A program made the translations under genes and the position numbers. A stretch of 64,000 bases of DNA. Origin: Flavobacteriaceae bacterium (GTDB lineage: Bacteria > Bacteroidota > Bacteroidia > Flavobacteriales > Flavobacteriaceae). Below, piece after piece: positions 60,224 to 64,000 of this stretch. The DNA lies in assembly GCA_027082925.1 (NCBI GenBank), contig JALWTD010000011.1, positions 1 to 64,000 on the forward strand, in the 5' to 3' direction. Under the pieces are notes generated by a model that was not told the DNA's origin, searched no databases, and saw only the letters and a list, made by a program, of their open reading frames with translations. Every line of letters starts with the position of its first letter. Position 1 is the first letter of the stretch.

Positions 60224-62530
60224 TTAATTAATGATGGCAATTTTTGTAAAAGTTGTTTCTGTACTATCGTTTACTGTTAAAAGGACAATGTACACACCTG
60301 AAGCAACTTTATGCCCTGCTAAATTAGTTTTATCCCAAATAACTTTTCCTCCAAAAAGTTCTTGGCCTTCTCTAACATTTGTTTCGTACACTAAATTACC
60401 TGCCGTATCTAATATTTTTACATTCGTATTGTTTGGTAAATGTGCTCCATTTCTACCATCAATTGTAATATACTCATTTGTTTTTGTAGAAGGGTTTGGA
60501 TAAGCGTATACTTCGGGTAACTGATCTCCGTAAAAAGATACATTGCTATCAAAAGCTACAATACCCTTATCTGTGGCAAAAAATACTTTTCCGGAATCAT
60601 TATCAATGGCTATTTTTAAAATATTGTTAGACGGTAAAGGAGAATTGTTTTTATTAAAATTTTGAAGTACTTCTGTTCCATTCGGATTTGTTTTTAAAAC
60701 ACCTCCAGATTCGGTTCCAAACCATTTATTATCTGCTCCATCAATAGCTATGGTGTTTATTGGTTGGTCTCCTAATAATTTTTTAGGAATGCCATCATCT
60801 AAAATAATTACGGGTTCAGCATCAACAATATTTTCATTAAAAATATCGGCTGCATTATAGATTACTACCAAGCCTTTTTTTGTACCTATCCAAACTCTAT
60901 TTTTATTATCTGATTTTACAGTTCTAACATTTAAATCGGGAAGTGAGCCTTTTGTTTGCTCAGTTGTAAGTGCTTTTTTGTTGTTTCCTGTTTCGTTAAA
61001 AACCAATACTCCATTTCTTCTAGATCCAATCCAAATATTGGTTGTTTTATCAACTATAAGCTCATTTAACCCTAAAGCTGGGTTCGTTATAACGGTACTC
61101 ATATCAAAACTACTCCAATTACCGCCAGGGGTGTATTTCTTAATTCTATTGTCAACCCAGGCGTTTGCTACCCATAAATTACCTTGTCTGTCAAAAGCAG
61201 ATCCATTAATTCTAATACTTATATAATTTGGGTTTGGATAATCTAGCTTTTCTAAGCCACTATTTAAGTGATTCCAGCGGGTTGTAATCTCATCATCTTC
61301 AACAATTAACATTCCTCCACCCCAAGAGCTTAAATATACCTTATTTTCAATATTTGGGTCAAAAGTGATGTTTACTAAATCTCGAACGCCGTATGTTGTA
61401 TCGTATGGTGTATTTTTCCATACTTCTCCATTATAATGGCTGTACCCAAACTGTTTCCCTAAAGGAGTGTACGCTGTATTATAACCTCCGTAAACAATCC
61501 ATAAATTATTGTTTTTAACCGCTATTGAAAAAGGTAAGTTAGAAACAGGGCCTTCTGGATGAATTTCATTAAAGGCTAAACTATTTTGAAAGTTTGCTTC
61601 TAAAATTCCATATTCTTGCGTAGCTAAGTAAAGTGTATTACTTTCTGCTAAAGCGGTATTCAAATTGTAATAATATGGTTCAGTTGCTGTTGTTGTATAG
61701 TTAAAAATTTCAACATCATTTACATTGTTAATAAAAACACCTCTTTGTGTGGCTATCGTTAATAAGTCTGATGAAGATTTTAGGCTTTTGATTGGTTGAG
61801 AAAACGTTTTTAGTAATAATAAATTATTGTTTTCTATCTTATAAAGATTGTTACCTTTTGAAGTGTATAGCGTATTATTGAAAATTTCAATCGATGAAAA
61901 ATCACCTGTAAATAGTTGAGTCCAATTATTATAATCAATTAAATTAGGGTTTGTTATATCTGCTTTTAAAATTCCTATTTCTGTAGCAGCATAAATGGTG
62001 TTTTGATAAATTTTGATTTGATGAATATTTACTTCGGTAGATAAATTTCCTATAAAATAGGTGTCTCCAAATTGCATTTGTTCAATATCGTACACAACTA
62101 TCGCAAAAGAAGTTGACAGGTATAACTTATTCTCATAGGCTGTAATATTATTTATTTTTTTATTCCCTGAATAATTAAAATTAACAATGTCTCTTGCTAT
62201 GGTAATATTGTTATTTTCATCAATAATTTCAAGCAAGCCTGTTTCGTAACCAACTACAAGCTTATTAAATGCTTCACTATAGTGAATACTAGCTGTTTGT
62301 TCTCCCGACAATCCATTTACAGATGATAATTTTTTAATAGCACCGGTACTTGTATTGTAGTTAAATATAGCGTTGTCTACTATAGCGTATATTGTGCTAT
62401 TGGTTTTTGTGAAGTTTTTTACATTGTTGTATGAGTAGAAGTCTTCCCAGTTATTTGAATAATCTTCCTGACTCCAAGATAAGTTAAGGTTAATAACTAT
62501 TAATATAAATATTTGAATTGCTTTTTTCAT
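60224..62530 (-). CDS. porZ: PorZ-like type IX secretion component
   Basis: A 768-aa exported protein. The signal peptide is 1-20 (LNLSWSQ). Repeated two-component-regulator-propeller blades form two beta-propellers (about 30-660, e.g. NLWIVYGGY, NIWIGSRRNGVLVF, NKWFGTESGGVLKTN). The C-terminal T9SS-type domain (about 675-768) has VYAYPNPSTKTNEY and GVYIVLLTVND. This is the PorZ architecture, a surface part of the T9SS attachment complex that delivers A-LPS-type anchors to the sortase PorU. It starts at the ATG 62530; an upstream TTG abuts the TATATTTG box. Gene order with recO is conserved in Flavobacteria. Confidence 0.9.
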   Translation of the reverse strand: MKKAIQIFILIVINLNLSWSQEDYSNNWEDFYSYNNVKNFTKTNSTIYAIVDNAIFNYNTSTGAIKKLSSVNGLSGEQTASIHYSEAFNKLVVGYETGLLEIIDENNNITIARDIVNFNYSGNKKINNITAYENKLYLSTSFAIVVYDIEQMQFGDTYFIGNLSTEVNIHQIKIYQNTIYAATEIGILKADITNPNLIDYNNWTQLFTGDFSSIEIFNNTLYTSKGNNLYKIENNNLLLLKTFSQPIKSLKSSSDLLTIATQRGVFINNVNDVEIFNYTTTATEPYYYNLNTALAESNTLYLATQEYGILEANFQNSLAFNEIHPEGPVSNLPFSIAVKNNNLWIVYGGYNTAYTPLGKQFGYSHYNGEVWKNTPYDTTYGVRDLVNITFDPNIENKVYLSSWGGGMLIVEDDEITTRWNHLNSGLEKLDYPNPNYISIRINGSAFDRQGNLWVANAWVDNRIKKYTPGGNWSSFDMSTVITNPALGLNELIVDKTTNIWIGSRRNGVLVFNETGNNKKALTTEQTKGSLPDLNVRTVKSDNKNRVWIGTKKGLVVIYNAADIFNENIVDAEPVIILDDGIPKKLLGDQPINTIAIDGADNKWFGTESGGVLKTNPNGTEVLQNFNKNNSPLPSNNILKIAIDNDSGKVFFATDKGIVAFDSNVSFYGDQLPEVYAYPNPSTKTNEYITIDGRNGAHLPNNTNVKILDTAGNLVYETNVREGQELFGGKVIWDKTNLAGHKVASGVYIVLLTVNDSTETTFTKIAIIN

Positions 62531-62601: not shown

Positions 62602-62647
62602 AAAAAAAAACCTCGAACATCGTAATACGTTCTTACAATGTTCAAGG
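62602..62647 (-). terminator. Strong intrinsic terminator on the minus strand
   Basis: A 15-bp stem (62633-62647 with 62611-62625, 7-nt loop) is followed by nine U at 62602-62610. The two non-Watson-Crick positions are G-U pairs on the minus strand but C-A mismatches on the plus strand, so the structure is selected for minus-strand RNA. Confidence 0.9.
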
Positions 62648-62723
62648 AATAAATAAATCAACCCCAAAGACTTATTTAATGTTTTTATGTATTGTGCCAA
62701 AACCCCTCTTGACATTAATACAT
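62602..62723 (-). ncRNA. Candidate small RNA with two GGGGUU loops
   Basis: A free-standing unit of about 120 nt between a TATATTTG box and a strong terminator, with no supported gene inside. Hairpin 1: outer stem AUGUAUU/AAUACAU (62717-62723 with 62687-62693), inner stem GUCAA/UUGGC, loop GAGGGGUU. Hairpin 2: 10-bp stem (62669-62678 with 62650-62659, one G-U), loop UUUGGGGUU. The third hairpin is the terminator. Both apical loops expose GGGGUU. A 45-codon frame (62715-62578) runs through the terminator and is unlikely to be the product. It could be a new family or an existing Bacteroidetes RNA motif (e.g. Flavo-1) that I cannot check here. Confidence 0.68.
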
Positions 62724-62752
62724 TACAAATATACTATAGTATGTAATACATT
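62717..62752. repeat. Palindrome and direct repeats over the small-RNA promoter
   Basis: A perfect 12-bp palindrome ATACTATAGTAT (62731-62742) overlaps the -7 box. It is flanked by ATTAC/GTAAT and by direct copies of AATACATT at 62717-62724 and 62745-62752. This is a likely operator. Confidence 0.5.
62726..62733 (-). promoter_or_regulatory. -7 box TATATTTG of the candidate small RNA
   Basis: An exact TAnnTTTG match. The nearest -33 TTG (62759-62761) has a 25-bp spacer, slightly long. The transcript would start at about 62720-62723. Confidence 0.6.
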
Positions 62753-63205: not shown

Positions 63206-64000
63206 TTACTTTAACGGAAAGCTAATTAGTACTTTAGTACCTGTTTCTGTTTCTGAAGAAATATCTTTAGTCTCTATGTGAACACCTTGATTTTGATACA
63301 AAATTCTTATGCGGTTTTCTGTGGCTTTTGCTCCAAAAAACTTACGTTTTTCAGACATCACATGTGTTTGTGCTTTAACCTTATCAATACCTACACCGTT
63401 ATCTTTAATAATAAACAACACTTTACCGTTTTCCTCTTTAATGGTTAGCTCTATTATTTTTTCACCTTCTTTCTTCATAATGCCATGCCATATTGCATTT
63501 TCAATAAAAGGTTGTAAAAACAGTGGTGGTACTTTTATATTTTCCAAGTTTAATTTCGGGTCAATATTTACAATATAGTCAAAACCTCCGTTAACACGCA
63601 TCTGCTCAAGTTTTACATAAAGCGAAAGTATCCCCAATTCTTCTGAAAGTGTTGAAGTTGGGCTTGAGGAACTATTTAAAATAACCCTTATTAGTTTAGA
63701 GAATTTTGTAATATAGTCTGAAGCTTTTTCTATTTCGTTTTTTAATACAAAATTATTAATTGAGTTTAGTGAATTGAATAAAAAGTGAGGATTCATTTGA
63801 CTTTGAAGAGCTGTCATTTTAAGTTCCTCCATCTCTTTTAACTTTACCGCTAATCTAATTTCTGCATTTTTACTTTTTTGCTCTATTCTCTTTATAATAA
63901 ATCCTATTATTACAGAAAAAATAACACACTGAAGTATTGTTCCTAGATAAACAAAAAACATAGGCTGCACTCCTAAATCTGTAAAAAAGGCCTTTCCTGT
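63206..64000 (-). CDS. LytS/YehU-type sensor histidine kinase (5' truncated at window edge)
   Basis: The frame is open to the right edge; 264 residues are visible and the N-terminus lies outside. A membrane span is seen near the cut (FVYLGTILQCVIFSVIIGFIIKRI), followed by a coiled coil and the His_kinase (LytS) domain with LQSQMNPHFLFNSLNSINNFV (phosphoacceptor His). The HATPase part has PLFLQPFIENAIWHGI, IKDNGVGID and ENRIRILY. Such kinases act with LytTR-type response regulators; the partner would be expected just outside the window or elsewhere. An internal GTG at 63970 is not the true start. Confidence 0.9.
   Translation of the reverse strand, partial: TGKAFFTDLGVQPMFFVYLGTILQCVIFSVIIGFIIKRIEQKSKNAEIRLAVKLKEMEELKMTALQSQMNPHFLFNSLNSINNFVLKNEIEKASDYITKFSKLIRVILNSSSSPTSTLSEELGILSLYVKLEQMRVNGGFDYIVNIDPKLNLENIKVPPLFLQPFIENAIWHGIMKKEGEKIIELTIKEENGKVLFIIKDNGVGIDKVKAQTHVMSEKRKFFGAKATENRIRILYQNQGVHIETKDISSETETGTKVLISFPLK

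Follow-up and report, generated by a model that had tools for sequence, protein, structure and literature searches.

A predicted two-loop small RNA beside a LytTR-type kinase gene in Lutibacter, with CAP-domain lipoprotein leaders as its probable targets

What, if anything, is encoded in the gap between a sensor histidine kinase gene and porZ near the end of a 64,000-nucleotide stretch of DNA (the window) from a member of the Flavobacteriaceae? An initial annotation, made from the letters alone, had found no convincing protein gene there and proposed a novel small RNA (sRNA) on the minus strand, whose repeated loops might either titrate a protein, as Rsm RNAs do, or seed pairing to mRNAs. The features at issue are as follows.

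63206 to 63970, minus strand: sensor histidine kinase gene (PF06580, by Pfam), open at the window end; 5' neighbor of the sRNA
62726 to 62733, minus strand: promoter -7 box TATATTTG (TAnnTTTG), from the sequence and the flavobacterial sigma-A consensus as excerpted from PMC9723704
62602 to 62721, minus strand: predicted sRNA gene of about 120 nt, its start placed from the position of the box
62687 to 62723, minus strand: hairpin 1, with the GGGG loop at 62703 to 62706 and the pairing stretch GAGGGGUUUUGGC at 62696 to 62708
62650 to 62678, minus strand: hairpin 2, with the loop UUUGGGGUU at 62660 to 62668 and a pairing stretch of loop plus 3' arm at about 62646 to 62669
62602 to 62647, minus strand: intrinsic terminator, a 15-bp stem plus nine U residues ending at 62602
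60224 to 62530, minus strand: porZ (PF21544, by Pfam), the downstream (3') neighbor, with the sRNA terminator lying in between

Read 5' to 3' on the minus strand from 62733 to 62602, the order is TATATTTG, hairpin 1, hairpin 2, terminator, and nine U residues, so that the -7 box (62733 to 62726) and the 15-bp terminator are present as annotated. Because the sigma-A consensus TAnnTTTG is placed at -12 to -5 in the excerpted text of PMC9723704, transcription would be expected to start near 62721 and not at 62725, where the feature had been made to end. The box is kept, with small variants, in aligned upstream sequences of relatives. The predicted energy of the 124-nt fold is -38.6 kcal/mol, whereas shuffled sequences average -18.2 (z of -7.07), and none of 200 shuffles was equally stable. 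Two stable hairpins are predicted, as claimed, but the claim that GGGGUU is displayed in both apical loops fails for hairpin 1, whose predicted unpaired loop is GGGG alone, the next UU being paired; the loop of hairpin 2 comprises nine unpaired nucleotides, UUUGGGGUU.

The fold is accompanied by conservation. A DNA search of 38 Lutibacter genomes matched 36 and gave a full-length copy in 35 (82 to 94% identical, the window's own copy apart), with two copies each in G024 and G036, only short target-type matches in G028 (62% complete), and no match in G017 and G035. In an alignment of 30 of the 37 full-length copies, each from a different genome, both GGGGUU motifs are invariant in all 30 species, nucleotides 41 to 81 around hairpin 2 contain one variable position, hairpin 1 shows one-sided changes with pairing kept, and the terminator shows compensatory changes at five pairs. 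Since hairpin 2 is invariant inside the genus, it shows no covariation there. An ATG or TTG near nucleotide 11 is common among the 30 copies, which is what a small protein would predict; yet the closed reading frames differ in length between species (the commonest, 14 aa, occurs in 8 of 30) and the linker between the hairpins varies by 1 to 2 nt, which shifts the frame. No small protein is conserved, therefore, and the segment almost certainly does not encode one.

The RNA is uncatalogued, as no Rfam family matches it. Between 61000 and 64000, with E values up to 10, Rfam returned only two chance-level snoRNA matches and no Flavo-1 (RF01705), a family to which the annotation had pointed and which is alike only as a Bacteroidetes RNA motif (PMC2864571, PMC9723704; both in excerpt). 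The whole window at the gathering score gave tRNA-Leu only, and the loci of eight relatives gave one sub-threshold match. A description of this sRNA was not found in the open-licence papers searched. The best explanation of these features is a stand-alone gene, presumably transcribed, for an sRNA of about 120 nt on the minus strand.

The proposal of a novel sRNA gains further support from a constant neighborhood. A LytTR-type sensor kinase adjoins the sRNA in all 30 Lutibacter loci tested, and a kinase of the same family lies near the RNA in all 10 non-Lutibacter loci tested, on the same (5') side in 9. The exception is G217 (L060), with the kinase at the 3' side and an identity of only 44%, which makes its orthology less sure. 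In a relative, the partner regulator of the kinase has Response_reg and LytTR domains by Pfam. This position suggests that expression of the sRNA may be under the control of the LytTR two-component system. Feedback on the response-regulator gene was considered as well; AACCCC, the motif discussed below, occurs in 2 of its 23 leaders. Separately, many LytTR response-regulator leaders (L076 to L114) read GTCAACCCAT, and upstream of this gene in the same loci there is a promoter-like TATCTTGC, which fits the TAnnTTGY motif SM5 in the excerpted part of PMC9723704.

How far does the RNA extend beyond Lutibacter? Of 299 family genomes, a model of the 30 copies matched 10 (E values of 0.01 or less): three Lutibacter genomes already in the model, two genomes of g4, two of g34, and one each of g113, g181, and g3. 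Both loops are present in the two g4 genomes; the others outside Lutibacter have hairpin-2-type RNAs, and G149 (g113) carries two tandem copies, each consisting of hairpin 2 and the terminator alone. A second model, of hairpin 2 plus terminator, was run on 40 chosen genomes and gave E values below 1e-5 in seven (G000, G149, G040, G070, G217, G273, and the g3 genome G039), of which all except G039 had helped to build it. Some match at E values of 1 or less, mostly weak, occurred in 23 of the 40; the weak matches L421 to L429 and L434 were left out of inspection. Across genera (15 sequences), hairpin 2 shows one-sided changes only, with pairing kept (98.0% paired, three cells unpaired), and 16 of the 17 one-sided change cells are in the 5' arm, opposite U.

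Weak matches of the second model beside menA-like genes (E values of 0.04 to 0.17) were rejected as homologs and belong to another RNA. That other conserved sRNA candidate lies near position 1500 on the minus strand of L415, L418, and L420, from three other genera, reads GUAGGUC...UUUGGGGCUUU followed by a terminator, and has no Rfam match; its neighbor is a gene that we take to be menA-like. Genus g3 (L412, L413, L431, L432, and L435) has several RNAs per genome with a GGGG-loop hairpin and terminator, of the form UAAAUCUUA-GGGG-UAGGAUUUA, with four matches at E values below 0.002 in G273 and two below 1e-4 in G039. Three Lutibacter species (L048, L049, and L050) also carry a hairpin-2-like string, GTCTTTGGGG..GAT..ATTT, next to a palindrome that resembles a terminator.

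A first view of what the loops might bind came from the genus DNA search itself, which also gave short perfect matches to hairpin 2 that, on the opposite strand, are leaders of the type AATAAATAAATCAACCCCAAA. The 12-mer ATCAACCCCAAA occurs 112 times in the 38 genomes, compared with 20 for the reversed pattern, and 37 of the 112 are the sRNA itself. The other 75 sites comprise 47 in long open reading frames, which are probably chance, 1 in a short one, and 27 between genes, and for 20 of these 27 the locus contains MarR and/or CAP genes. Pfam on the target loci identified MarR (5.6e-10) and the CAP domain (PF00188; 2.6e-13); an earlier reading of the repeated sites as integron-like cassettes was dropped, as they are MarR/small ORF/CAP loci. 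Other patterns were not clearly enriched at the level of whole genomes: AACCCCAAA gave 33 sites in the window's own genome versus 33 for the control, AACCCCAAAN{0,9}ATG gave 316 versus 280, and the hairpin 1 11-mer CAAAACCCCTC gave 57 (36 of them the sRNA) versus 49. Among the 30 classifiable AACCCCAAA sites of the own genome, only two are within 15 nt of a plausible ATG, and both precede the two CAP genes.

CAP homologs are present in 35 of the 38 Lutibacter genomes, several of which are incomplete, and start codons were chosen by rule. Of 68 distinct CAP leaders, 56 (55 before start correction) have AACCCC no more than 60 nt from the start, 38 have two or more, and 12 lack it. By comparison, it occurs in 9 of 322 control leaders; 325 had been drawn, of which three were CAP genes with a wrong start and were moved out. 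Many of the control loci had been retrieved because they contain AACCCC, which biases the comparison against a difference. Leaders within one genus are not independent. Across 26 loci that contain MarR or CAP genes, AACCCC is found 83 times on the sense strand versus 0 on the antisense strand; three loci repeat others, which leaves about 80 places, and the loci had been chosen for the site or a CAP gene, not for strand. By these counts, a conserved seed is complementary to the leaders of genes elsewhere in the genome. In G017 (88% complete), in which no sRNA was found, a CAP leader lacks AACCCC, a hint to which we give no weight.

Two side observations stand apart. Two non-CAP genes resembling those for secreted proteins or lipoproteins (L168 and L234) have CAP-style C-rich leaders and are possible further targets. 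In 16 of the 68 CAP loci, an imperfect hairpin of about 60 nt (CAGYCGYAA ... CCCACAACGGU ... UUGCGRCUG) lies 25 to 99 nt before the ATG (L002:1238-1322 on the minus strand, L036:3220-3304, L043:3486-3570, and 13 others). Two of its stem pairs show two-sided changes among 15 of the 16, and it looks like a separate RNA or a mobile palindromic element.

Does each loop recognize these leaders beyond its run of G? Median RNAduplex energies for hairpins 1 and 2 were -14.5 and -17.1 on CAP leaders, versus -9.4 and -9.9 on controls and -12.6 and -12.0 on shuffled CAP leaders. Decoy loops that keep the G core were then compared on 61 nonredundant CAP leaders. Over whole leaders, hairpin 2 was better than all 300 decoys, and hairpin 1, which 27 of 300 decoys equaled, was not special; on 61 control leaders, decoys were as good in 4 of 100 (hairpin 2) and 11 of 100 (hairpin 1), a slight preference for hairpin 2. 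By region, hairpin 1 stands out within 24 nt of the ATG (z of -3.2, 1 of 300 decoys as good) and not upstream (z of 0.0, 134 of 300), while hairpin 2 stands out upstream (z of -4.5, 0 of 300) and more weakly near the ATG (z of -1.9, 5 of 300). Hairpin 2 upstream and hairpin 1 near the ATG is the order that an antiparallel duplex needs. This order was seen in 23 of 30 leaders in which both sites were above threshold and apart, a figure without a control, and typical loop 1 sites lie between about 17 and 4 nt ahead of the start codon.

Among the cofolded leaders of the own genome, only that of a small ORF (C14) is ideal, with both sites side by side, a cofold gain of -24.7, 21 contiguous bp with hairpin 2 (-31.5), and 11 bp with hairpin 1 (-23.6). 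The CAP leaders of this genome show AACCCC pairs but in an unexpected order, with the hairpin 2 site nearer the ATG on C14 and the sites overlapping on C18, with only modest gains on whole-molecule cofolding (-6.7 and -7.1 kcal/mol). Gains for other leaders were -2.8 (porZ), 0.0 (the gene after porZ, which we take to be recO-like), and -1.1 (a TonB-dependent receptor).

Outside Lutibacter, a CAP homolog is present in 30 of 38 further family genomes (a chosen set). Among 35 CAP leaders from 27 genomes in which no sRNA was found, AACCCC occurs in none and CCCC in 6, and among five g4 CAP leaders the counts are 2 and 3, respectively. In G217, the sRNA reads AUCUUUUGGGGUGGUUU and one of two CAP leaders reads AAUCAUCCCAAAAGAU, directly before the ATG. 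The changed sRNA and changed leader form 16 contiguous bp (-21.6 kcal/mol), which beats all 322 control leaders, and the Lutibacter hairpin reaches -15.0 on the same leader. The second G217 CAP leader has no match (-9.0), and G217 is a single case. In g34, g113, and g3, where a hairpin-2-type RNA is present, no CAP match was seen, so that additional targets of the sRNA family must exist. A CCAAATCTAAATTTACCTACTT-type motif before the ATG is shared by CAP leaders from several other genera (L329 to L347). The idea that this motif is the target of an antisense sRNA was rejected: in nine genomes no antisense partner was seen, the two perfect matches being CAP leaders themselves and the remaining matches carrying three mismatches.

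Because the loops match C-rich sites in front of CAP lipoprotein genes, control is very probably exerted by base pairing. Our main reading, to which we give a probability of about 0.78, is that the sRNA is a two-loop, trans-acting, base-pairing repressor of CAP-domain lipoproteins. The GGGG loops would make the first contact with C-rich leaders. Hairpin 2 (UUUGGGGUU plus the 3' arm GAUUUAUUUAUU) would pair with AAUAAAUCAACCCC-type sites, opening so that its 3' arm zips along AAUAAAUAAAUC, and hairpin 1 (GAGGGGUUUUGG) would pair with (CC)AAAACCCC(U/A)C sites, covering the last nucleotides before the ATG. The predicted targets are the paralogous CAP-domain lipoprotein genes and the other cistrons of their MarR operon, and pairing over the initiation region would most likely keep ribosomes off and block translation. 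The location of sites close to the end of marR and ahead of the small ORF suggests that a single message is acted on at several points; this recalls, by analogy, the pairing of Rfp18 between fpp2 and fpp1 of Flavobacterium psychrophilum, reported in the excerpted text of PMC9723704 to uncouple the two.

The sign of regulation could be the reverse, with the sRNA pairing with CAP leaders and activating them by stabilizing the message or opening its structure. In F. psychrophilum, two metalloprotease mRNAs became less abundant when Rfp18 was lost (PMC9723704, in excerpt), but here the sites for loop 1 are concentrated no more than 17 nt from the start codon, and we regard activation as unlikely. 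Pairing within such a distance of the start codon usually blocks initiation. It is quite unlikely that the sRNA, though real, has its main targets elsewhere than in the CAP leaders, whose C-rich character would then be a trait of the Lutibacter lineage. The confinement of both sRNA and leaders largely to one clade, which makes the leaders nonindependent, and the g34, g113, and g3 sRNAs without a CAP match fit that reading; the decoy tests, the sense-only bias, G217, and AACCCC in two of five g4 leaders speak against it.

Protein-centered explanations fare worse. The suggestion of Rsm-like titration found no positive evidence. Complementarity extends past GGGGUU into the arm of hairpin 2 (in one own-genome leader, over 21 contiguous bp), which is more than a short protein-binding motif accounts for. 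Csr/Rsm titration RNAs share repeated identical loop motifs with this sRNA, but their motif is GGA, and the loops here are GGGG and UUUGGGGUU. A variant in which a translation factor or RNA-binding protein uses the AACCCC sites, and the sRNA acts as its sponge, would account for the GGGG cores being the most constant part and for the repetition of the loop motifs. It is nevertheless very improbable, as one protein would have to bind both GGGG loops and complementary CCCC leaders, the complementarity beyond the core is region specific for each loop, and the 16-bp match in G217 has altered letters. The suggestion that the loops seed mRNA pairing is the one supported, by the CAP leader counts, decoy tests, strand bias, and G217.

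Two published sRNAs are comparable on their descriptions. Rfp18, also from a flavobacterium, is likewise a strongly folded stand-alone sRNA, and for one of its stem-loops pairing is predicted with a set of related mRNAs whose products are secreted or lie at the surface, one of the sites being intercistronic; it differs in pairing by its third stem-loop and in having metalloproteases and an adhesin, not CAP lipoproteins, as predicted targets (PMC9723704, in excerpt). LhrC of Listeria monocytogenes also uses redundant short motifs to bind surface-protein mRNA and impede translation and is linked to a two-component system, but its motifs are CU rich, it is multicopy, and it belongs to another phylum (PMC4132741, in excerpt); nor did the Rfam searches give a match pointing to it.

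More tentatively, and at somewhat less than even odds, we propose that a LytTR-linked locus in Flavobacteriaceae encodes an sRNA with GGGG hairpins, the seed of which has changed in step with the target leaders from one genus to the next. The form in Lutibacter and g4 would act as a two-key lock, in which tandem loops read two ordered C-rich sites, one RNA is dedicated to the CAP lipoprotein family, and gain or loss of AACCCC repeats brings paralogs into the regulon or releases them from it. Few flavobacterial sRNAs seem to have been described that act by base pairing on a clear regulon, Rfp18 being the only one found in the open-licence papers searched. The code of the present candidate would be unusually legible: a pair of conserved loops, C-rich sites whose placement follows the region of the leader, and surface lipoproteins that form one dedicated family. 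Related hairpins from other genera would constitute a natural experiment on the joint change of an sRNA and its targets.
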